Assembly: GCA_949840905.1 (NCBI GenBank)
Contig: CATKXW010000017.1
Span: 1 to 46,501 of the forward strand
Length of the DNA: 46,501 nucleotides
Source of the DNA: an uncultured Eggerthellaceae bacterium
GTDB taxonomy: Bacteria; Actinomycetota; Coriobacteriia; Coriobacteriales; Eggerthellaceae
Reading direction: 5' to 3'
In this document: positions 25,555 to 38,386 of the stretch, piece after piece
Position numbering within the stretch: the stretch's first letter is position 1
Layout of the letters: each line of letters begins with the position of its first letter
Position numbers and translations under genes: made by a program
Notes under the pieces: model-generated
The model's database searches: none
The model's input: only the letters and a program-made list of their open reading frames with translations
What the model was told of the DNA's origin: nothing

Positions 25555-27951
25555 CTAGCTCTTATATATGTACATCGACACGGCACGGTAGCTCACGCCC
25601 TCCGCATCCTCCACCGTCGGCACGGTCTGGCCGGCCTTGTAGCCCTGGTTCGCGGCCACTTCATAGGAATCCTCGATGGATGGCTCGCCGAAACCAGCTG
25701 CCGCCAACCACGCGAGGTTCTCCTCTTGCGTGCGCGCCGCCTGGACACTGTTGCCGATCGCCCGTGCCGCGTCGATGACCTCCTGCGGCCGTGCCTCGCT
25801 CGCGAAGATGGTCTCCATGATGAGAAGGCCTCCCGGTCTCAGCACGCGGCTCATCTCGCGAATGGCCTGCTCTTGGTCGTAGAAGAGCGTCATCACGTTG
25901 TTCACGTACACCACATCGAACACCTCGTTGCCGATGCCCGCCTCGATCAAGTCTTCGGGAAAGGCCCAACGAAAGTCCATGTTGTCATGCTTCAGGCCAC
26001 TGTCATGCCATGCTCGATCCTGACCGTCCTTCGACTCGGCCACATAGGCGCGATTCCAATCGACGCCCCACGCCTCGCCTCCATCGCCCACCATGGCGCT
26101 GATCTTGTACACGCCACGACCGCGACGACAGCCGATGTCGAGCACCTTCTTATGAGCGAGCTCGCTCGCCGGTAGCAGCATCTTGCAGATGGTGGCGAAG
26201 CCGTACTCGAACTGCTTGCCGGCGTAGTAGGCCTTCAACATCGCCCGATCGATAGGCTTCACCTCACCTATGCAGGCTTGCCGATCGTCCGTAGCCCCTT
26301 CATCAGCTGAGCGCACGCTCGCACCTGACGACTCCTCCGGTGCCACCTGCACCTCCTGCACTACCGCGCTCGCGCTCGTGTCGATCAGCTTCAAGGGATC
26401 CTCGACGACTTCCGCCTCAGCCGCCGCTTCGATATTCTCGCTCAAACGATCCAGCATCTCCGCGCGCTCAGCCAAGCCCATACGTCCAGCATCCACCTGC
26501 AAATGCTCGTTATGAGCGTAGTAGCGTTCGTTGCCATGGTGGGCCACGAACTGGGTGGTCGCCCGACGCGTCGCGAGCTCGGCCATGAACACGAGCATCT
26601 CACGATCGCCGAAGCAACCATCGATGAAGTCGAAGGCGGCGTCCATCCGTGAGCCAACGTTTGCAACCAGCGGCTTCAACGCCTCCACCTGGCCTTTGTA
26701 CGCCTGCTCGATGGTATGGAACGCTTCATCCCCTTCTTCGGTGTCCTTCAAAGCGCACTGAGCGCCATAGCCCTTCAAGCGCTCGATGATCAGGCTCTCT
26801 CGTCGCACGAGAGCCTCGCTCGCCGTACCAGCCCGTCGCTTGCGCGCAAGCTCGCCCTCTCGCGCGGTGATGCGCGGCTGCAGCGCCGCTTCCACCGTCC
26901 CTCCGCCCAACAGCTCCGCCTTCGCCCCTCGCAGCTCATCGCGCAGCTGCAACATCACGGCCTCTTCGTCGAGCACGGCCGCGCACTCCCGCGCCAACAC
27001 ATCGAGCACAAGGCTCATCAGCGCAAGTCGCTCGTCGAACTCAGCGCCTTTGGCGCGTTCCTCGATGGCCGCGGGCGCTTCTCCGGCCAGGATGGCGTCC
27101 ACCTGATAATCAGAGCGATATTTCTCGAACAGCCCGTAGTACACAGCGAACTGATCGGCTATATCGTCATCGCGAAGGAACTGCACCACCAGCTCGCGAT
27201 CCACCGGCTTTCCCATGGCCTCGTACACGGTGATGAGGTCGGCTAGGTCCTCCCAGCCACGAGCCGTCACGAACGACTTGCCCCCACCAGGCTTGCTCTC
27301 CACTTTGTAGAAGCAGTCCTTCTTCGCCTCCAAGAACGTGGTCACGGCCGGATGTATCCCGCGCTCGGCAGCGTAGCGCTTCCATGCGCCGTGATCGGGC
27401 TCCACGTCTATCTCGCGCAAGCGATCGAGGGTGACGATGTCGAACTCATGCACCGAGCGGTTGTACTCCGGCGGATTCCCCGCGCAGACCACCACCCAGC
27501 CTTCGGGCACCTGATGGCTGCCAAACCGCTTGAACTGCAGGAACTGGAGCATCGACGGATAGAGCGTCTCCGAAACGCAATTGATCTCGTCGAGGAACAG
27601 GATGCCCTGGCGCAGCCCCGTCTCCTCCATATAGCCGTAAACGGCCGCCACGATCTCGCTCATGGTGTATTCCGATGCCTCGAACTCGACATCGCCGAAA
27701 CGACGGTGCTCGATGCGCGGAAGGCCCAGAGCGCTCTGACGCGTGTGGTGGGTCATGGAGTAGGACACGATGCCTATGCCCAGCTCTCGCGCCACCTGCT
27801 CCATGATGGCCGTCTTACCGATGCCGGGCGCGCCCAACAGGAACACCGGGCGCTGATGCGCCGAGGCGATGAGCGGCAACCCTGCCTCGTCCACCTTCAG
27901 ATAGGCTTCCACCGTATCTTTGATCTGCTGTTTCGCCGAAGCTATGTTCAT
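25555..27951 (-). CDS. MoxR-type AAA+ ATPase fused to a SAM-dependent methyltransferase
   Basis: The 798-residue protein has two recognisable catalytic parts. Residues 1-330 are a MoxR-type AAA+ domain: Walker A GAPGIGKT (40-47), Walker B LFLDEIN (118-124), then VVCAGNPPEYN and RLREIDVEPD. Residues 330-560 are helical and charged. From about 600 a class I methyltransferase starts: motif I VLDIGCRRGRG (603-613), acidic residue in WGVDWN, EVFDVVYVNNVM, then REMSRVLRPGGLLIMET. The frame is uninterrupted, so the fusion looks genuine. It lies 18 bp after the metallopeptidase/VWA gene; MoxR and VWA proteins classically act as chaperone pairs. The substrate is unknown. Confidence 0.85.
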   Translation of the reverse strand: MNIASAKQQIKDTVEAYLKVDEAGLPLIASAHQRPVFLLGAPGIGKTAIMEQVARELGIGIVSYSMTHHTRQSALGLPRIEHRRFGDVEFEASEYTMSEIVAAVYGYMEETGLRQGILFLDEINCVSETLYPSMLQFLQFKRFGSHQVPEGWVVVCAGNPPEYNRSVHEFDIVTLDRLREIDVEPDHGAWKRYAAERGIHPAVTTFLEAKKDCFYKVESKPGGGKSFVTARGWEDLADLITVYEAMGKPVDRELVVQFLRDDDIADQFAVYYGLFEKYRSDYQVDAILAGEAPAAIEERAKGAEFDERLALMSLVLDVLARECAAVLDEEAVMLQLRDELRGAKAELLGGGTVEAALQPRITAREGELARKRRAGTASEALVRRESLIIERLKGYGAQCALKDTEEGDEAFHTIEQAYKGQVEALKPLVANVGSRMDAAFDFIDGCFGDREMLVFMAELATRRATTQFVAHHGNERYYAHNEHLQVDAGRMGLAERAEMLDRLSENIEAAAEAEVVEDPLKLIDTSASAVVQEVQVAPEESSGASVRSADEGATDDRQACIGEVKPIDRAMLKAYYAGKQFEYGFATICKMLLPASELAHKKVLDIGCRRGRGVYKISAMVGDGGEAWGVDWNRAYVAESKDGQDRAWHDSGLKHDNMDFRWAFPEDLIEAGIGNEVFDVVYVNNVMTLFYDQEQAIREMSRVLRPGGLLIMETIFASEARPQEVIDAARAIGNSVQAARTQEENLAWLAAAGFGEPSIEDSYEVAANQGYKAGQTVPTVEDAEGVSYRAVSMYIYKS

Positions 27952-27969
27952 CGCTCGTTCCCTCCTCTA

Positions 27970-29631
27970 TCACAGGTTCCGCAGAGCATGTTCGTCCAGC
28001 ACCACTTTCATCGCCCAGGGTGGCACCGGCGGCGTCTGTTCGCCCTCCTCCGCCACGAACACGAAGGCCGCATCATAGTCGGGCGGTCGTTCCGGGAATT
28101 GCCCGAACCCGTCGGTGAAATAGATCAGCCCGCGCAGGTTCTCCAGCTCGCCGCGCTCGCACAGCATACTCACATGGTCGAAGGCCGGGCGGAAGTCGGT
28201 TCCGCCGAAGCCGCGCACCGTGAATCCCTCCGCAAGGGCATCTAGGTCGCAGCCGTCCTCTATGAGCAGATCGGACTGCACGCGCGAATCGCTCTGGATC
28301 AGGTGGATGCGCATCTTCCGAGCGAAGTCCTGAGAGCTCCGCATGATGTCGAACGTATGCTGCAAGAAGCGCTTCACCTGATCGCCCCTCACCGATTCCG
28401 ACGTATCCACCACGATGACGAAGTCACGTATGCGCTGGGTCTCTTGATATTCCAACGGCTCGATGAGCGGCATGTTGCCGTAGGTCTCAAGACCGAACAT
28501 ATAGGGCAGATAGTCGAACTCGTCCATGTTGACCTGCACTTCTTCGCTGCGCACCATGAATCGCTTCAAGAAGTCAGCGTAATCGAACGTCCTTCGATTC
28601 ACCAGCGCCAAGGTCGCCATCAGGCTTCCCGCCTCATCACCCCATTCCTTCGCGAAAGTCTCCAGATCCATCGCGATCTCCTTGGCGATGTCCTCCCACT
28701 CCTGCCTCTGACGCTCCTCGTCGGCCCTTTCAGCACGGGGTCGGTCCTGCGGCCCGTCGTCGAGGCCCGTGGGCGCTCCGTCTCGGGTTCCCTCTTCCAC
28801 AGAAGGAGGCCGCTCACCACCTTCGTCGCTCTCGCCATCGCGTGCACCCGAGGCCGCCCTCTCCTCGCCGGTGCTCGAATCTATCTCGCCGCGCGCATCT
28901 TCGGGCACGTTCTCGCCGGCCGTCTCGGTCCGCGACTCATCCACCTGCACATCAGGATCCTCGTCATCTTCGATCATCTCCTGTCGCTCGGCGCTCTGGG
29001 GTCCCTCCCCATCGCCTGCGTCGCGATCGTTGGCCGGCCATCCCCCATGGTCATCTCGCTCGAACAGCCCATGCCAGTCGTTGAGGGTGCTGCGGCCGAT
29101 GCCGCGGAAATGCTGCCCGCTCGGGGTCATCACCAAGCCATGGACGAACTCGTACACCTTGCCGGGCAACAACGAGCCCACCATCATGCGAAGCTGATCG
29201 AGGGCCTCTCGCCGTGCCGGATCATCAGTGCTCGCGAACCGAGCACCGCACAGCTCCATCACCACGTTCTCCACGATGATGTCGCATGCGAGGCTCCATG
29301 CCTCCTCATCTCCATGGTCGCGATCGTAAGGGTGACAGAAGATGCAGTGCATGATGAGATGAAGGTAGTCGCGCACCGTCTCTTCGTAGGACTCGCGGAA
29401 CCGCCCTATCACGCGAGGCGGATCATGGTAGACGGCTCGCCCGTCGGTCATGAGACCATAGCGGGCGCCCGCTCGCAACGGGGTCAGCTCCATGCGCCAG
29501 AGCGCCAGGTCGAGAAAGCGGAACTTCAGCATCAGCTGAGCGCGACATTCGTCGATGATGTCGGCAGCGAGCGCATCCTCGGCGAGCCGTTGTCGATACC
29601 TCGGATCCTCTCCTTCTGTAGCCGATATCAT
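27970..29631 (-). CDS. DUF2201-type metallopeptidase-like protein with C-terminal VWA domain
   Basis: The 553-residue protein has an N-terminal domain with a metal-site-like HLIMHCIFCH (H91, H95, H100) followed by SLACDIIVENVV, as in DUF2201 putative metallopeptidases; the classical HExxH glutamate is absent. Residues about 200-300 are an acidic Glu/Asp/Ser/Arg-rich linker. The C-terminal VWA-like domain (about 400-553) has the MIDAS motif DTSES in FVIVVDTSESVRG and later LIYFTDGFG. Such VWA proteins partner MoxR ATPases, and the next gene is one. It has a strong AGGAGGTG site and no signal peptide. Function is unknown beyond this pairing. Confidence 0.82.
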   Translation of the reverse strand: MISATEGEDPRYRQRLAEDALAADIIDECRAQLMLKFRFLDLALWRMELTPLRAGARYGLMTDGRAVYHDPPRVIGRFRESYEETVRDYLHLIMHCIFCHPYDRDHGDEEAWSLACDIIVENVVMELCGARFASTDDPARREALDQLRMMVGSLLPGKVYEFVHGLVMTPSGQHFRGIGRSTLNDWHGLFERDDHGGWPANDRDAGDGEGPQSAERQEMIEDDEDPDVQVDESRTETAGENVPEDARGEIDSSTGEERAASGARDGESDEGGERPPSVEEGTRDGAPTGLDDGPQDRPRAERADEERQRQEWEDIAKEIAMDLETFAKEWGDEAGSLMATLALVNRRTFDYADFLKRFMVRSEEVQVNMDEFDYLPYMFGLETYGNMPLIEPLEYQETQRIRDFVIVVDTSESVRGDQVKRFLQHTFDIMRSSQDFARKMRIHLIQSDSRVQSDLLIEDGCDLDALAEGFTVRGFGGTDFRPAFDHVSMLCERGELENLRGLIYFTDGFGQFPERPPDYDAAFVFVAEEGEQTPPVPPWAMKVVLDEHALRNL

Positions 29632-29657
29632 GGCACCTCCTATAGTCTCCTTCGATC

Positions 29658-31910
29658 CTACAGGTCGAAATCGAGAGCATCGCCCGCAAAGCGAGCGCGC
29701 TTGACCTCCAGCAGATAGCCTGTGATGGAAGCATCGCGCAGCGAGCTCAGACGATCGATGACGGCGAACAGATTGCTTTCATTCAGAAAACCGAGGTCGA
29801 GCAGACCGTCGATGAGAGAACGATCGTCATGTCTGACCGCCTCCACGCACAGCTCCTCGACGTTATCCCTCAGCACGCGCTCCGCGAGCTCTCGATTGAC
29901 CGCCGTCATGAACACAGGATCCCGAAGTCGCTCCACCAGATGACATCCCTGCTCGTAGAGGTCGAGCCGCTCATCGGTGGCAGCGTCGAAACCCGACGCT
30001 ATCACGATGGAGGTGTCATAGTGCTCGAAGAAGACCGCCGGTTCCACCCGCTCCGGGATGCTCAGAGCGAACGCCAACTGAGCTTCGCTTCGCTCGCTCT
30101 GCGGGAAGCGCACCTCATAGGATGTGCGCCCATCCCGCGGCTCGCTCAAGCCGATGCGCACCCGCGAGACCAGCCCGCTCAGAGCCAGCCCACGAATGCC
30201 CACGTTAGTGATCCAATCGCCGATGAGCAGCTCCTCCACGCCCTTCACGTTGTTCATGGCGTAGGGTGCCACCTCGTCCACCCGCTCATCCAAGCGCACA
30301 GTGCTCACCCCGCCCGTACAAAGGAGCAAGCGCAGCTTTCCCGTGGGCTTGCGCTCGAACAGCAGCCCTTCCTCAGCGAAGAAGCGCTCGTTATCGGCCT
30401 CCACCACCACCTCTTGCAGCTCGGGCGTACCGAGTCGGTGATGGGCGCCATAGGTGACCAGCGCGTTCTCACCAAGATGGACCAGCGTTTTCGGAAGGAC
30501 CGATCGCTCGATCGCCGTATCGAGGAAGGCTTCAGCCTCGATACGCTCGATAGCCTTCCCTCCCTCGATCATCCGGAGGCCGCGACAGCCCTTGAACGCC
30601 CCTTCGCCCACAACGCGCAGACTATCTGGCAGAACCACTTCGCACAGCGTTCCTTGGCCCGCGAAAGCGGCTGCCTCGATGAACGCCGTTCCAGGCTGCA
30701 CCTCATAGCGCTCGATCTCATCGGCCATCAACCGCGCGAAGCATAGACCGTCCTCGGTCTCTCGGTAGAGACCTCCTTGCTCGTCAAGATGCAGATGGAT
30801 GCCGCCCTCCCGGATACTGAACGTCGCCTCCGCGCCGCAGAACGTCACCCCTGTATGAGCCGCTACCGGATTCCCGAGCCGTTCGATGGTGGAGGGCACC
30901 TCCAGCTCGGTCAATCCGGTATTGGAGAAGCCGTTGTCCTTGATGGAAGCAAGGCCCTCGTTCAGAGTCACGCGAACGAGCTTCTCACAGTTGAAGAACG
31001 CCTTCTCCTTGATCTCGCGCAACCGAACGGGTGCCATGAGCTCCTCGATGCTCGTGCGCGAGAACGCGAACTCGCCTATGCTCCTCAAGCTCTCAGGAAG
31101 ACGAACGTCCTCCAGCGCCCCGAAGCCGCTGAACGCCTTCTTCGCGATGGTCTCGCACCCCTCGGCTACCGCGTAAGAGCTCACTGGGCGCACCAGCGCG
31201 ATGAGGCTGCGCCCATCTTTCGAGTAAAGGGCGGTGCCATCGGTGGTCAGATGCAGGTTCTCCTCTGCCACCTCGACGGTCTCGATCTCGCTCTTCGCGA
31301 ACGCACCTGGCTCCACTGCGGCGGTACCGGCACCGATGACCAGTTCTTTCAACGACGACATATCGAAGATGGACGGATCGATCTTCAGTAACGACCCCGG
31401 CAAGGTCAACGAGGTCAGCTTGCGGCAACTGCGCACCCAATGAGAATCGAACTCCTCGATACCGCGAGGGAATACGATGCGCTCAAGATCCTCGTTCTCC
31501 CGAAACGCACAAGGCCCTATGGAGGCGAGCGTATCAGGACAGACGATGGAGCGAACGCCATCTTGGCGAGCACAGGCATCCGGAGCCAATGCCATCACGG
31601 GCTTCCCCTCGATCGCCTCAGGGATGACGAGGGCTTCGCTCCTCGCTTCACACGACACGATGCGGATCCATTCTCCGTCGACGACCACATAGCGCCACGC
31701 AGTACCGCTCTCATCGACGGTATCGCGCACATCAGAGGTGCGCGCCCGATCCTCAGCAGCTGAGCGCTCGAAACGGGCACGACGCTCTCGCGCGAGCTCT
31801 TGCGCTCTCTCTACCTGGATCGCAGATGCTGGTCCATCGCTCAAAGCCATAGGAGTGAAACCTCCGAAGCATACATCGAGTTCGCTCAGATCCATCAAGG
31901 AAGCCCCCAT
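29658..31910 (-). CDS. Intracellular BspA-type leucine-rich-repeat protein
   Basis: The 750-residue protein has many LRR_5 (BspA/TpLRR) repeats across about residues 100-590, e.g. LESIG.FAF-like units (LRSIGEFAFSRTSIEEL, LREIKEKAFFNCEKLVRVTL, LRVVGEGAFKGCRGL). There is no signal peptide or wall anchor, unlike most BspA proteins, so it should be cytoplasmic. The C-terminal 120 residues are helical and repeat-free, with ankyrin-like phrases (DDRSLIDGLLDLGFLNESNLF). ATG 31895 is an alternative start. It is 26 bp upstream of the VWA gene and looks like the first gene of a three-gene operon. Recognition or scaffolding is the likely role. Confidence 0.78.
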   Translation of the reverse strand: MGASLMDLSELDVCFGGFTPMALSDGPASAIQVERAQELARERRARFERSAAEDRARTSDVRDTVDESGTAWRYVVVDGEWIRIVSCEARSEALVIPEAIEGKPVMALAPDACARQDGVRSIVCPDTLASIGPCAFRENEDLERIVFPRGIEEFDSHWVRSCRKLTSLTLPGSLLKIDPSIFDMSSLKELVIGAGTAAVEPGAFAKSEIETVEVAEENLHLTTDGTALYSKDGRSLIALVRPVSSYAVAEGCETIAKKAFSGFGALEDVRLPESLRSIGEFAFSRTSIEELMAPVRLREIKEKAFFNCEKLVRVTLNEGLASIKDNGFSNTGLTELEVPSTIERLGNPVAAHTGVTFCGAEATFSIREGGIHLHLDEQGGLYRETEDGLCFARLMADEIERYEVQPGTAFIEAAAFAGQGTLCEVVLPDSLRVVGEGAFKGCRGLRMIEGGKAIERIEAEAFLDTAIERSVLPKTLVHLGENALVTYGAHHRLGTPELQEVVVEADNERFFAEEGLLFERKPTGKLRLLLCTGGVSTVRLDERVDEVAPYAMNNVKGVEELLIGDWITNVGIRGLALSGLVSRVRIGLSEPRDGRTSYEVRFPQSERSEAQLAFALSIPERVEPAVFFEHYDTSIVIASGFDAATDERLDLYEQGCHLVERLRDPVFMTAVNRELAERVLRDNVEELCVEAVRHDDRSLIDGLLDLGFLNESNLFAVIDRLSSLRDASITGYLLEVKRARFAGDALDFDL

Positions 31911-32030: not shown

Positions 32031-32381
32031 TTACTTCTGATAAAGCTTAGCCGTCTCCCACGGAGCGCCAGCCGGATTGAGCTTACGGCGTCGCGAGAGC
32101 TCATCCGAATGCATGATGCAATAGCGGAGGCCCTTCAACGTCACATACAGGCTCGCGATCTCATGGTTGGAGCCATGATTGAATACCTCGTAGGTCAGAT
32201 ACTCTCGGTCGATCATGGGCTGATAGACCTCACTGCCCTCCACCTTCTCGAGCAGTATGTTGGTCGCCTCGCGGCCGAGCTCATCCTGCTTCAACGAGAT
32301 GTTGTACAGGATGTTCTCCTGCTCCTCGGTCAAACGACCGATCTCTTCGATCTCTGCACGAATCTCTGCTTCTGTTGCCAT
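32031..32381 (-). CDS. Uncharacterised 116-residue protein downstream of the molybdoenzyme operon
   Basis: I do not recognise this protein. It starts with a charged coiled-coil-like helix (EAEIRAEIEEIGRLTEEQEN), continues with mixed helix/strand (REYLTYEVFNHGSNHEIASLYVTLKGLRYCIM) and ends in a basic tail. It has no signal peptide or span and a single cysteine. A perfect AAGGAGG site precedes the ATG, suggesting strong expression. A terminator at 32521-32565 separates it from the molybdoenzyme genes, so it has its own promoter; two inverted repeats lie in that promoter region. Any link to the molybdoenzyme rests on proximity alone. Confidence 0.75.
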   Translation of the reverse strand: MATEAEIRAEIEEIGRLTEEQENILYNISLKQDELGREATNILLEKVEGSEVYQPMIDREYLTYEVFNHGSNHEIASLYVTLKGLRYCIMHSDELSRRRKLNPAGAPWETAKLYQK

Positions 32382-32580: not shown

Positions 32581-32856
32581 TTAGATACCAGCGTAGCCCT
32601 TGGAAGGATCGGAGTTGCCGACGCCGGTAGCCTCGTCGCCAGCTTCGTTGCCGGTGCGCTTCGTGGAGGTGTAGCCACCCCAAGCGCGGGCGATGAACTT
32701 ATCCTTCACCCAGAAGATCTGAGCCTTCATGAGGTCGGCCTGGGTGACTCCCTCTTCAGCCAAAGCCTCATCTTTGGACTTGCCCTCAGCCACGAGCTTG
32801 TTCAGAATCTCAGCGGCTTCGGGGGCATCAAGAGCCAAGAACTCATCGCGGGTCAT
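32581..32856 (-). CDS. Uncharacterised 91-residue protein of the molybdoenzyme operon
   Basis: I do not recognise this family with certainty. The N-terminal 55 residues are helical (LDAPEAAEILNKLVAEGKSKDEALAEEGVTQADLMKAQIF) with a helix-turn-helix-like rhythm. The tail is Gly/Thr/Asp-rich (GGYTSTKRTGNEAGDEATG, then DPSKGYAGI) and probably extended. There are no cysteines, signal peptide or spans. It is the last gene before the terminator and has a perfect AAGGAGG site. It could be an accessory subunit or assembly factor of the enzyme. A 9-bp-arm hairpin separates it from the small subunit gene. Confidence 0.78.
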   Translation of the reverse strand: MTRDEFLALDAPEAAEILNKLVAEGKSKDEALAEEGVTQADLMKAQIFWVKDKFIARAWGGYTSTKRTGNEAGDEATGVGNSDPSKGYAGI

Positions 32857-32947: not shown

Positions 32948-33307
32948 TTACAGCTGCCAGAGAACCATCGGACGATCGAACTCCTGCATCTTAGCGATCA
33001 TCTCTTCCAGAGTACCGTAGTACATGGAAGCGGACTCCTCGACCTGCACAGCGAGCGGACGCTGGCCGGCCTTGTCGCCATTGGTTCCCCAATGCTCGGA
33101 GAAGATAGAGGTCGGGCAAGGAACATAGAACCATTCCCAAGCGTCGCCCGTGTCGCCCTCGGCCTTACGGAAAGGACCGACCTGAACCTCTTTGATGCCG
33201 AACTGATCGAGAGGAAGACCCAGCTCTTCTTTACAACCGATCTCTGCAGCATGGTTGCCAGAGAAATAGGTGTAGTCGACGAGCAAAGCATACTTCTGAT
33301 CTGCCAT
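32948..33307 (-). CDS. Ferredoxin-type small subunit lacking nearly all Fe-S cysteines
   Basis: The 119-residue protein aligns by eye with the 4Fe-4S partner subunits of DMSO-reductase-family enzymes. VDYTYFSGNHAAEIGCKEE follows VDYxYCxGCHxCExACKEE, with C to F15, C to N18, C to A21 and only C25 kept. VPCPTSIFSEHW follows VPxPTDLCDLC (C to F69 and H72). RPLAVQVE before MYYGTLEEM replaces the usual PxCVxxC (C to A86 and E90). Thus seven of eight cluster ligands are gone while the fold-defining segments (LGLPLDQFGIK, YYGTLEEMIAKM) stay. It probably remains as a structural subunit without clusters. The reference pattern is from memory and needs an alignment. Confidence 0.8.
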   Translation of the reverse strand: MADQKYALLVDYTYFSGNHAAEIGCKEELGLPLDQFGIKEVQVGPFRKAEGDTGDAWEWFYVPCPTSIFSEHWGTNGDKAGQRPLAVQVEESASMYYGTLEEMIAKMQEFDRPMVLWQL

Positions 33308-33328: not shown

Positions 33329-35707
33329 CTAGTCAGCGTCGAGGCTGCGGACGCGGCGCATGTTGCACATAACGCCCTTGTAGGGTGCGCCGAAGCCGAG
33401 CTTGCCGATGTTCATGTGCGGCACGAGGCTGTTGAAGTTGGACTTCCACACACCGAACAGGTTGGGCTCTTCGCCGTCCTGCTCAGGGAACCACCAACCA
33501 TGAGCGCAGTTGATGATGCCGTCCTTCATGACCGGCGTGATCTCGGCCTTGAAGCGAGCCTCGCCGAACATGTTGTAGACCTCCACCCAGTCGCCGTCGC
33601 TGATGCCGTACTCGGCAGCGGTCGTCGGGTTGATCTGCACCCACGGCCACGGATCGATCTGGCGCAGGGACGGAACATGACGATGCTCGGAGTGGAAGGA
33701 GCTGTAGCGACGAGAGCCGGAAGTGGTGATCAGCGGATAGCCAGAAGCCATGTCGGGCTTGCTGATCGGGGAGTAGTTCGGCTCCTCGTAGTACGGCAGC
33801 GGATCCTCGCCCCAGGATTCGTACAGAATCGAGTAAGCCTCGATCTGGCCGGTAATCGTGTTGAAGCCAGGGTTGCCGTCGAAGCGGAGCATGCCCTTCT
33901 CGTACTTCTCGTACTCGAAGCCATGAGCACCAGGCTGATACAGACCGAGCTCCTGGAAGCCCTTCCAGTCGAAGCCGAGCTCCTTGAGCTGATCGCTGTA
34001 GAAGTCCTCCACAGCGGTCTGCAGAGCGTCGAGGTCGAGCTTGCCGCGACCCTGAGCGCTGGTCACAGCAGCCGGGGACTCGGACTGAGCCAGAGCGGCG
34101 ATGTCCAGGGTCTCACCAGCGGGCTTGTACCACGGCCACCAGGTCGGGTTCAGGCGCTGGCCGAAGATCAGGCAGATCTCAACGTCGGACTTAGCCTCGC
34201 CCACGGTGAGAGCCTTGTTCATGGGGCCCATGAACACGGTGTTACGACCGTAGTGCGTGAGGCAGATGCCATCATGCTCGGCCCAAGTGCTCATCGGCAG
34301 GAAGTAGTCGCCCACGGCCATGGCGGTCGGGGTGAGGGTGATGTCCTGGATGACGACGAACTCGAGCTTCTTCAGCGCGATGTGCCAACGCTTCGGCTGA
34401 GCGGAGCAGGTCGGAGCCAGGAAGTTGGAGCTGTTGAACCAGCCCATCTTCAGAGCATAGGGCTCGTCCGTCTCCATGGTGTTCAGGGTCTCGTCAGGCT
34501 GGGTGGTAGCCATACCAGTGGACAGACCCGGCCATGCGGCAGCACCGATGCGCTTGGACCACACAGCGTCGTCCATAGCGCCACGCTGCTCCATGCGCCA
34601 CTTGCCCAGGAGGGCAGAGGGAGGACCGAGGGTCAGGCCGCCCGGACGGTCGATGGAGCCGGCGAGACCGGCGAGGATGATGAATGCCTGGGACAGCTGC
34701 ACGCCATTCTTGTTCTGGTCGAATGCCAGACCCCAAGCCCAACCGATCGGACGCTCGGTACCGATGATGTGAGCGACCTTCTTGATGGTCTCAGCGTTGC
34801 AAGTGGTGATCTCGGCGACCTTCTCCACCGGATACTCAGCAGCGCGAGCCTTGACCTCGTCGAGGCCGTAGATCCACTTCTCAGCGAACTCATGATCGTA
34901 CTCGTCGTTCTCGAACATGAGGTTCATGATGCCGAGAGCCATGGCGGTGTCGGTCTGCGGACGAACCTGCAGGTTGATGTTGCCGTCATGAGCGCCGACC
35001 CAGGTGATGCGCGGGTCAACGGAGATGATCTTCGTGCCGAGCTTCATCATGTCGACGAGGCAGTGGCCGAAGAAACCGTCGCCGTTGGAAGGCAGCGGCT
35101 CCTTGCCCCAGACCACGACCCACTTGGAGAGGGTGTAGCGCGGGTCATGGTAGCTGCCCGGCAGGTGACCAGCGTAGTCGAGCTCAGGATAGCCTGCGCC
35201 GAGCACGTAGTCGGAGATGGAGCAACGAGGACCGTAGCAGGACCAACCGGACTGCGTATAGCAGCAGTTCGGGGACTGCAGCACGGAGAACGTCAGAGCA
35301 TAGTAGAAGATGCAAGCCTCACGGCCGGTACCACCGAAGCAGACGATGGACTCGGGACCGTAGGTGTTCTGGAAGTAGCGCACCTTCTCGCAGATCGTGT
35401 CGATAGCCTCATCCCACGACGTGCGCTCCCACTTCATCTTACCGCGATCCTCGCGAGCGCGCTTCATCGGGTAGATGACACGCTCGGGAGCATACGTGTA
35501 CTCACGGAGCGCAAGGTTCATGGCGTTAACACGACCAGTGGTGATCGGGTTATCGTCGTCACCCTCGATGCGGATCAGCTCACCATCCTTGGTGATGACC
35601 TTAACACCGTATCCAACCGGATGAGACCCTGGGGGGGACCAGGTGTTGGAGCGGGTAGCGACCGTGCCGTCGGAGCGCTCGACACGCCACTCTTTGCTGT
35701 AAGCCAT
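33329..35707 (-). CDS. Molybdopterin oxidoreductase-family catalytic subunit without the FeS site
   Basis: The 792-residue protein is a DMSO-reductase-family (bis-MGD) enzyme. Seen: KDGELIRIEGDDDNP (39-53), YAPERVIYPMKR (72-83), SWDEAIDTI (97-105), the Mo region SPNCCYTQSGWSCYGPR with C157 as likely metal ligand, KIISVDPRITWVGAHDG, GPPSALLG, and the C-terminal dinucleotide-binding domain (VQINPTTAAEYGISDGDWVEVYN). The N-terminal cluster motif is replaced: WSPPGSHPVGYGV has S24, S28 and Y33 where Cys is usual, and GRVNAMNLAL has N61. No Tat signal, so cytoplasmic. Relatives include catechol dehydroxylases, acetylene hydratase and pyrogallol transhydroxylase; the substrate is unknown. It is co-transcribed with its small subunit. 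Confidence 0.88.
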   Translation of the reverse strand: MAYSKEWRVERSDGTVATRSNTWSPPGSHPVGYGVKVITKDGELIRIEGDDDNPITTGRVNAMNLALREYTYAPERVIYPMKRAREDRGKMKWERTSWDEAIDTICEKVRYFQNTYGPESIVCFGGTGREACIFYYALTFSVLQSPNCCYTQSGWSCYGPRCSISDYVLGAGYPELDYAGHLPGSYHDPRYTLSKWVVVWGKEPLPSNGDGFFGHCLVDMMKLGTKIISVDPRITWVGAHDGNINLQVRPQTDTAMALGIMNLMFENDEYDHEFAEKWIYGLDEVKARAAEYPVEKVAEITTCNAETIKKVAHIIGTERPIGWAWGLAFDQNKNGVQLSQAFIILAGLAGSIDRPGGLTLGPPSALLGKWRMEQRGAMDDAVWSKRIGAAAWPGLSTGMATTQPDETLNTMETDEPYALKMGWFNSSNFLAPTCSAQPKRWHIALKKLEFVVIQDITLTPTAMAVGDYFLPMSTWAEHDGICLTHYGRNTVFMGPMNKALTVGEAKSDVEICLIFGQRLNPTWWPWYKPAGETLDIAALAQSESPAAVTSAQGRGKLDLDALQTAVEDFYSDQLKELGFDWKGFQELGLYQPGAHGFEYEKYEKGMLRFDGNPGFNTITGQIEAYSILYESWGEDPLPYYEEPNYSPISKPDMASGYPLITTSGSRRYSSFHSEHRHVPSLRQIDPWPWVQINPTTAAEYGISDGDWVEVYNMFGEARFKAEITPVMKDGIINCAHGWWFPEQDGEEPNLFGVWKSNFNSLVPHMNIGKLGFGAPYKGVMCNMRRVRSLDAD

Positions 35708-35888: not shown

Positions 35889-36152
35889 TTACATGCCCGG
35901 AGCCTTGGGGGCACCAGGAGCAGCCGGAGCACCAGGGGCACCAGGAGCAGCCGGGGCACCGGGAGCGCCACCAGCAGCGTTGATGGCATCCATGTTCGGG
36001 GTACCGTCTTCGTTCATGTACTTGCTGAAATCAGCCTTGCAGAAAGGGCAGGACTTCAGAACGAGACCGCCCATGGACTGCACGGGCTTACCGCACTCGG
36101 GGCACTTGTTGACGCCAGCTCCACCGGATGCGTCTGCGGGTCTAAAACACAT
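35889..36152 (-). CDS. Small zinc-ribbon protein with Ala/Pro/Gly tail, first gene of the molybdoenzyme operon
   Basis: The 87-residue protein starts MCFRPADASGG, has a zinc ribbon (CPECGKPV and CPFCKADF, about residues 17-43) and ends in repeated Pro-Gly-Ala units (GAPGAPAAPGAPGAP). I chose the ATG at 36152 because GAGGAGG stands seven bases upstream; ten more in-frame codons exist 5' but lack a site. I recall similar MCFRP-type proteins beside molybdoenzymes in Eggerthellaceae; the role is not established. It lies 181 bp upstream of the catalytic subunit, without a strong terminator between. Confidence 0.8.
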   Translation of the reverse strand: MCFRPADASGGAGVNKCPECGKPVQSMGGLVLKSCPFCKADFSKYMNEDGTPNMDAINAAGGAPGAPAAPGAPGAPAAPGAPKAPGM

Positions 36153-36310
36153 AAGCAATCCTCCTCGGATCTTCTCGCTCACAGCCCTCTCTCACTACCT
36201 GCACATGAGCATGCGAACATCCCATCACAAGACATAAGAGCGAGTTATGGGAGAACGCATGCTGTATATATGGTCAGATCGCGTTGGCTGTGAACTCTTC
36301 CTTTATTCCA

Positions 36311-36613: not shown

Positions 36614-38386
36614 ATGGCAAAGGGCCTACCTCATATCACCGTAAGCGTCGGCCGACAGTCCGACGACGCCCAAACGACGAGCGACATCAATCTGCTCTCC
36701 GTGGGGCTGGGCCTCTACCAAGCCTGGATGTACCTTTCCATCTTCGGCTCAGGCGTCATCTTCATGGCTACCAAGTCACCTTCCTTGGGCGAGGCCATCT
36801 ATGCGTCATCGTTCGCCACCCAGGTGTTCGACGCCTACTTCATCACCGTGAGCCTGTGTCTGCTGCTCATCGCCTTCACCAATCAATTGCTGCTGCGCTT
36901 CTTCACCAGCAAGAGCGCGCTGCTCTGCGCAACGATGCTGGCCGTAGCCGGCTCGGTACTGGCCTTCCTGCCCGCTGGGGAGGAATCGGCGTGGCTCATG
37001 GCGGTAGGGGCCGGCATCTGCATGGGCATCGGCTCCAGCCTCATGATCGTGCTGTGGGGCACCGCGTTCGCCCGTTACGAGTTCACCACCATCATCCTGA
37101 ACACCGCCATCGCCCTCGCCATCGGCGTCATCGTCTACTTCACGTTCATCCAGTGGATGCGCACCGAGTTCTCATGCGCCATCGCGGCCGTGTGCCTGAT
37201 CATCAGTGCGCTGTTGCTGTGGAAGCTGGCTCCTATGCGCTCCTCGGCCACCGACGAGATACCGGTCTTCCGCCCTCTGCCGGTGCAACGCTCGCGCTTC
37301 ACCATGCGCGTAGGGATCCCCACCTTGCTCTTCGGCGTGGTACTGGGCATGCTGCTGTTCATCTGCATCGAGCGAGTGCTCGCCAACACGCGCCTGTCGG
37401 AACAGGTCATCGTGGGCGCTGCCGCCATCGTCAGCATGGGGCTCATATTCGTAGTGTCAGCCCTCATCTCTCATGAAGAAGCCCACTGGGACATGATCTT
37501 CCGGATCCTGGTGCCCATCGTGGGCCTTTCGTTGGTAGCTGTGCCCTACCTGAGCGGCTCGTGGTCCCTCATGGCAGAGTTCCTCGTCATCTGCGGCTAT
37601 ATCTGCATGCAGACGCTCATGTGGATATTCTTCTCGAACCTCGCCCAGGAATTCCGCCTCTCCCCTATCTTCGTGTTCGGCCTGGGCAACTGCATCGTGT
37701 CGGTGGGGACCATCGCTGGTGCGTACTTCGGGCGCATCATCTTGGAGTGCCTGATGACCCAGAGCGCAGCCTCGCTCGACCTCGGCGTGCCGCTCAATGT
37801 GGGGGATCTGGTGCTCGTACTGCTGTTGGCACTGCTGCTCGGCTATGCGCTGCTGCCCCGTCGTCGCGAGATCCGCGCTATCATCGTGCAGGGCCACAAC
37901 GTCGAGGGCGCCGGAGCTGCAATAGCAGAGCTCGACGGCGAAAGCGCGCCCGCGATCGAGGAGGGCGCTCCTGCGCGGCCGACGGAGCAGCCACTGGTGG
38001 CAGTTCCCACCCCGGGCATCCCCAACGCCGCCGCCCTCGCAGAGCAACAGGCCGAGGCTGCTCCTCCTGACCATTCCGACCAGCAAGTGGTGAAGCATCG
38101 CTTCCGGGATGCCTGCGAGGAGGTGGCCGACCGCTACCTGCTCTCACGCCGCGAATCGGAGGTCATGTTCTTGCTGGCGAAGGGGCATAACGCCTCCTAC
38201 ATCCAAGACAAGCTCTGCATCTCGCGCAGCACGGCGAAGACCCATATCAACCACATCTACAAGAAGCTGGACATCCATACCCAGCAAGAGCTGCTCAACA
38301 TGGTGGACGAGACCATGGACGAAGCCCAGTCCGACGCCCCTACCTCCACTGAAGAGCCCGATCCCAAGAGCATCTTCGCCGACTGA
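36614..38386 (+). CDS. Membrane-embedded LuxR-family regulator with about 12 spans
   Basis: The 590-residue protein has about twelve hydrophobic segments across residues 30-430, then an Ala/Pro/Glu linker, then a C-terminal LuxR/GerE helix-turn-helix (about 515-575: LLSRRESEVMFLLAKGHNAS, then SRSTAKTHINHIYKKLDIHTQQEL). In Eggerthella lenta, large LuxR regulators of this build sit beside and activate catechol dehydroxylase genes. By analogy this one probably senses a small molecule through the membrane domain and controls the divergent molybdoenzyme operon. The ribosome site is weak (AAGGGA). A strong terminator follows. Confidence 0.88.
   Translation: MAKGLPHITVSVGRQSDDAQTTSDINLLSVGLGLYQAWMYLSIFGSGVIFMATKSPSLGEAIYASSFATQVFDAYFITVSLCLLLIAFTNQLLLRFFTSKSALLCATMLAVAGSVLAFLPAGEESAWLMAVGAGICMGIGSSLMIVLWGTAFARYEFTTIILNTAIALAIGVIVYFTFIQWMRTEFSCAIAAVCLIISALLLWKLAPMRSSATDEIPVFRPLPVQRSRFTMRVGIPTLLFGVVLGMLLFICIERVLANTRLSEQVIVGAAAIVSMGLIFVVSALISHEEAHWDMIFRILVPIVGLSLVAVPYLSGSWSLMAEFLVICGYICMQTLMWIFFSNLAQEFRLSPIFVFGLGNCIVSVGTIAGAYFGRIILECLMTQSAASLDLGVPLNVGDLVLVLLLALLLGYALLPRRREIRAIIVQGHNVEGAGAAIAELDGESAPAIEEGAPARPTEQPLVAVPTPGIPNAAALAEQQAEAAPPDHSDQQVVKHRFRDACEEVADRYLLSRRESEVMFLLAKGHNASYIQDKLCISRSTAKTHINHIYKKLDIHTQQELLNMVDETMDEAQSDAPTSTEEPDPKSIFAD

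Follow-up and report, generated by a model that had tools for sequence, protein, structure and literature searches.

Iron-sulfur ligand loss in both subunits of an Eggerthellaceae molybdenum enzyme matching the hydrocaffeic acid dehydroxylase Gp Hcdh

In a 46,501-nucleotide stretch of DNA from an uncultured Eggerthellaceae bacterium (GCA_949840905.1, contig CATKXW010000017.1; hereafter the window), we found a two-subunit molybdenum enzyme in which the residues that bind iron-sulfur clusters have been replaced in both subunits. With a probability of roughly 0.7, the pair is an orthologue of the hydrocaffeic acid (HCA) dehydroxylase of Gordonibacter pamelaeae (Gp Hcdh) in which the Fe-S relay was removed on one ancestral branch and the molybdenum site was kept, a donor delivers electrons directly, and the small subunit has a structural or docking role. 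The Gordonibacter complex and its activity were already known; what appears to be new is the loss of Fe-S ligands in it. The features of the two subunits are as follows.

32948..33307, minus strand: small subunit, 119 aa, homologue of a two-cluster 4Fe-4S subunit with 7/8 ligand cysteines replaced; Unk-9B orthologue
33233..33265, minus strand: first former ligand motif, F15-S-G-N18-H-A-A21-E-I-G-C25
33038..33103, minus strand: second former ligand motif, F69...H72...A86...E90
33329..35707, minus strand: catalytic subunit, 792 aa, bis-MGD molybdenum enzyme (Pfam Molybdopterin 6e-21, Molydop_binding 1.8e-18)
35609..35647, minus strand: former FS0 motif 1 (N21 ... S28 ... Y33), from alignment to relatives
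35516..35527, minus strand: former FS0 motif 2 (N61-A-M63-N64), from alignment to relatives; the Arg/Lys beside FS0 has become M63
35237..35239, minus strand: C157, the metal-ligand cysteine, kept

Replaced cluster ligands in the two subunits

The small subunit is encoded by an open reading frame that was recovered exactly as an earlier note on this DNA had described it, as a ferredoxin-type protein with one of eight cluster ligands left. Positions 15, 18, 21, 25, 69, 72, 86 and 90 are cysteine in all 21 cysteine-bearing relatives (hence both former motifs), and read F, N, A, C, F, H, A and E in the window, C25 being the sole cysteine kept. The window protein has no match in Pfam or NCBIfam, Fer4 included, and its homology to a 4Fe-4S subunit is therefore drawn from profile comparison. 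Its family matches the cysteine-bearing relatives over the whole length with a probability of 99.9 (E 1.9e-31, 38% identity, 110 columns). The Fer4 search that the earlier note had proposed thus gave no direct hit, and the homology that it was meant to reveal was found at the profile-profile level. The nearest cysteine-bearing relatives, which include three proteins in the window's own genome (36-41% identity), have two four-cysteine motifs each. Up to 8/10 of the cysteine-bearing relatives match Fer4_11 or Fer4_2 in Pfam, and as a profile they match chain B of 2VPW, the Fe-S subunit of a thiosulfate/polysulfide-type reductase, and formate dehydrogenase Fe-S subunits in PDB; PDB sequence searches with the window small subunit or its profile returned nothing meaningful. 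AlphaFold2 models of both subunits, built from shallow alignments, reached pLDDT values of only 55.3 and 42.9.

The loss extends to the catalytic subunit, as the earlier note had stated. All 30 catalytic subunits of the cluster-free clade have N, Y, N and N at FS0-site positions 21, 33, 61 and 64, with S at the variable position 28; among their relatives, cysteines are present at 33, 61 and 64 (21/23 each), usually with one more at 21 or 28. Across the 792 positions, seven switches are specific to the clade, six of them at the FS0 site (A22T, C33Y, L60V, C61N, R63M and C64N) and the seventh away from it (G251Q). The window protein has no cysteine before residue 106 and no TAT motif at its N-terminus. 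C157 is invariant in 33/33 family members and falls within the stretch that aligns to the metal-ligand cysteine of acetylene hydratase (2E7Z); the ligand loss is confined to electron-transfer residues, and the active site is retained. Position 63, the Lys/Arg adjoining FS0, we take from motif alignment to correspond to Lys44 of Escherichia coli formate dehydrogenase H. In that enzyme, K44M causes the loss of >90% of the cluster (PMC12176258). A review describes the Fe-S motif as absent from Gordonibacter catalytic subunits; contrary to this, the relatives that we examined have cysteines at an unusual FS0-like spacing, and it is the cluster-free clade that is without them.

Inspection of the sequences found no CxxCxxC-type motif left in the pair. 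The absence of clusters is predicted from ligand loss, and clusters bound by other cysteines would still be compatible with the sequence alone.

Match to Gp Hcdh

Gp Hcdh (Unk-9), which dehydroxylates the coffee polyphenol hydrocaffeic acid in G. pamelaeae, was described in 2024 with a catalytic subunit of 770 aa, which is 17/29% identical/similar to the 1193-aa Hcdh of E. lenta, and with a regulator that shares 44% identity and 60% similarity with E. lenta HcdR (PMC11585353). We identified the cluster-free clade with Gp Hcdh from such published numbers (lengths, identities and hosts), not from an accession. The catalytic subunit of the clade is 770 aa long in Gordonibacter and Paraeggerthella, and the window pair is 86-87% (catalytic subunit, 792 aa) and 91-92% (small subunit) identical to the 770-aa Gordonibacter enzyme and its partner over the full length. 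The regulator at the Gordonibacter locus is 44.0% identical and 60.6% similar to an E. lenta regulator that adjoins a TAT enzyme whose length is exactly 1193 aa and is the only E. lenta regulator match at E<=1e-60 (the comparison genome is taken to be E. lenta DSM 2243). The 770-aa large subunit is 18.4/30.0% identical/similar to that 1193-aa enzyme, a weakly discriminating value, with control paralogues at 20-21/30-32. The published hosts are Gordonibacter, P. hongkongensis RC2/2 A, E. isourolithinifaciens DSM 104140 and R. massiliensis (PMC11585353); the clade shares the first three among cultured organisms, and Raoultibacter at the genus level.

Gordonibacter has dozens of homologues and no accession guided the match, so we considered whether the clade is only closely related to Gp Hcdh, with figures that agree by coincidence. 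This is very improbable, as the regulator values (44.0/60.6), the lengths of 770 and 1193 and the host list all agree, and P. hongkongensis has three family members only at E<=1e-60, the other two having reading frames that are open over 756 and 842 codons. Locus L164, considered as a possible Gs Vadh, the published neighbour of Gp Hcdh, has neither the LysR gene nor the two transporters published for Gs Vadh.

Gp Hcdh was purified under air from HCA-grown cells with one Mo per protein, and in an assay with methyl viologen and dithionite it reduces HCA with a kcat of 28.3 per min and a Km of 0.24 mM; its deletion abolished HCA-dependent ATP formation, and in human gut metatranscriptomes its genes rank as the two most highly expressed of G. 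pamelaeae (PMC11585353). Among catechol dehydroxylases in such metatranscriptomes, it is reported to have the highest transcription. The earlier note knew of no described complex with the observed pattern; the complex itself had been described, as Gp Hcdh, while the word "iron" is absent from the main text of that paper and Fe-S ligand loss is not mentioned there (PMC11585353). Because of this silence, and because a later paper gives Gordonibacter-type enzymes an Fe-S subunit, the ligand loss in the Gp Hcdh clade appears to be so far undescribed, judged from the main text.

Around the unit, the window shares with the Gp Hcdh locus an orthologous operon, a divergent LuxR-type regulator and synteny, with nine genes in the same order as in Gordonibacter. 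The neighbouring genes are listed here.

32581..32856, minus strand: p91, conserved 91-aa protein, third gene of the unit
32031..32381, minus strand: p116, conserved 116-aa protein, fourth gene of the unit
35889..36182, minus strand: zinc-ribbon-like protein, 97 aa, often directly upstream of the unit
36614..38386, plus strand: divergent LuxR-type regulator, 590 aa (GerE 3.4e-11), of the class of substrate-specific catechol dehydroxylase regulators

Two differences from the Gp Hcdh locus were found. An MFS transporter (about 568 aa) is encoded at the Gordonibacter, Raoultibacter, Paraeggerthella and Ellagibacter loci (L140, L166, L139, L158, L159 and L085), whereas the window's genome has an intact 77% homologue of the Gordonibacter-locus protein on another contig (C11:27085-28788). 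The window regulator is 36.1% identical to the Gordonibacter one (36.4/54.8% identical/similar to that of E. lenta Hcdh), and at just 36% identity the inducer or substrate in the window organism could differ from Gordonibacter's. Orthology would make hydrocaffeic acid the substrate of the window enzyme; the published activity is that of the Gordonibacter enzyme only.

Further downstream (25555-31910), the window encodes AAA+/methyltransferase, VWA-type and BspA-type LRR proteins, which are 51-66% identical to, and in the same order as, those of Gordonibacter; these genes mark an old conserved neighbourhood. Neither p91 nor p116 has a recognisable redox motif, and their weak Pfam matches, below curated cut-offs, were left unused. 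By eye, p91 is HTH-like and the C-terminal half of p116 winged-helix-like. Among 13 genomes searched, p116 is confined to cluster-free loci. Genes similar to p91 also lie near other molybdenum enzymes at L134-L137, which are distant members of the family whose 4Fe-4S subunit carries cysteines, and p91 may have a more general accessory function.

Conservation and origin of the cluster-free pair

Among 37 small subunits of the cluster-free clade, N18, A21, C25, F69 and A86 are each present in 37/37, and F15, H72 and E90 each in 35/37, the other two having Y, W and D, respectively. L107 (genome G422), one of the two earliest-branching relatives, has C25T too, which leaves it with none of the eight ligands. 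A metal site of another kind, built from C25, H19, H72, N18 and E90, could have taken over from the clusters, and in keeping with this H19, N18 and E91 are invariant, and C25 and H72 nearly so in the main clade. Such a site is very unlikely nonetheless, given the Thr at position 25 in L107, the change of H72 to Trp or Ala in early branches, and the frequent occurrence of H19 in cysteine-bearing relatives; no ligand set is conserved clade-wide.

Most of the replaced ligand sites show synonymous codon variation, and pairwise dN/dS has a median of 0.09, a sign of strong purifying selection. The earlier note had asked whether both losses fall on one branch; in each subunit's tree the cluster-free forms have a single origin and make up one clade (support 100/100). 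The small-subunit tree has a long stem (1.3 changes per site) and short branches within the clade. As the replacing residues are fixed, dN/dS is about 0.09, each subunit gives one clade (100/100) and large-small-p91-p116 is a conserved operon across genera, the cluster-free state is conserved and not the result of decay.

The earlier note had seen in the double loss a relaxed need for electron transfer, with the complex itself retained. This view fails, since the clade matches a purified Mo-containing reductive dehydroxylase that consumes electrons and supports ATP formation and is thus a reductase. Drift under relaxed constraint would be in line with the joint disappearance of the ligands and with the long small-subunit stem, but is scarcely credible for an operon kept across genera under this selection, with fixed replacement residues and with Gp Hcdh genes so highly expressed in the human gut.

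We found the cluster-free small subunit in 38/138 genomes of the family (16/48 genera) and in four further families in the order. In 396 genomes across the phylum, the only cluster-free homologues belonged to the same family, and a plasmid search gave no match. A Raoultibacter paralogue, L116 (G085:C2:1674-1677k), has lost FS0 and has all eight small-subunit cysteines, with a p91-like gene nearby. Its placement as sister of the cluster-free clade has a support of 65/15, the alternative placement is not rejected (p-AU 0.46), and it may be an intermediate of stepwise loss. Both L116 and L121 (G037:C3:47-49k) have catalytic subunits without most FS0 cysteines (C33W, C61N/S and C64G/F) and small subunits that keep all eight; the two are possible intermediate stages. 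Raoultibacter also encodes a second, more divergent cluster-free copy (L143, G085:C2:356000-373000; large subunit 74-76%), whose neighbours resemble corrinoid protein and URO-D-type methyltransferase genes, which suggests a methoxy-aromatic context.

Electron supply and relation to other molybdenum enzymes

Among PDB entries, the catalytic subunit is matched best by acetylene hydratase (2E7Z, E 3.1e-71), the closest solved homologue, which likewise has a cysteine metal ligand and catalyses a redox-neutral reaction. Together with the restriction of the loss to electron-transfer residues beside an intact active site, this is consistent with a redox-neutral enzyme of the hydratase, isomerase or transhydroxylase type that needs no relay and so lost its clusters. 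It was our initial hypothesis and was dropped once the clade matched Gp Hcdh, which is electron-consuming in the methyl viologen/dithionite assay and supports ATP formation. We consider it unlikely also because acetylene hydratase, a single-subunit enzyme, retains its own [4Fe-4S] cluster with N-terminal ligands. Pyrogallol-phloroglucinol transhydroxylase has a serine metal ligand and a cluster-bearing small subunit, unlike the window enzyme with C157 and lost ligands.

The window enzyme resembles the Gordonibacter-type catechol dehydroxylases (Dodh and others; PMC7028382, PMC11887054) in its two cytoplasmic subunits, bis-MGD cofactor, LuxR-type regulators and lack of a TAT signal, and in having acetylene hydratase as the nearest solved structure. 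The generalisation that the second subunit of these enzymes binds Fe-S clusters does not extend to it, with 7 of 8 cysteines (8 of 8 in L107) and the FS0 site lost. El Hcdh shares with Gp Hcdh the substrate hydrocaffeic acid, by published assay, and a related regulator (44% identity), but is a 1193-aa enzyme with a TAT signal, an Fe-S subunit with 17 cysteines, a membrane anchor and FS0-type cysteines.

In the reading that we favour, a Gp Hcdh-type enzyme would be a molybdenum reductase that takes the para-hydroxyl off hydrocaffeic acid, and one ancestral branch would have lost the two small-subunit clusters, the large-subunit FS0 and the adjoining Lys/Arg while retaining the Mo active site. 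Because the enzyme still reduces its substrate with no recognisable relay, electrons would arrive by another, so far undescribed route; the published assay is silent on the natural one, as Mo can be reduced by methyl viologen and dithionite even where no relay exists. A soluble donor may pass electrons straight to Mo/pterin, in the manner of S/N-oxide reductases that have no FS0, and what was once a ferredoxin subunit may be kept for structure and stability or for docking of the donor. Enzymes of the TorA/BisC type are functional S/N-oxide reductases without FS0. DorA is likewise a reductase without FS0 (PMC10100899). All of these differ from the window enzyme in their serine ligand and in having no ferredoxin-like partner, and are not its close relatives. 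More tentatively, we picture a respiratory Mo reductase in which the ferredoxin-fold subunit has become a cluster-free docking or insulating part, a dedicated donor feeds Mo/pterin, and p91 and p116 may join the route.

If Gp Hcdh does work cluster-free, the picture of a Mo subunit paired with an Fe-S subunit would fail for the most expressed member of these dehydroxylases, and the absence of clusters could help explain how it survives purification in air. The clade would then be a natural system from which a multi-cluster relay has been removed, with close cluster-bearing relatives to compare.
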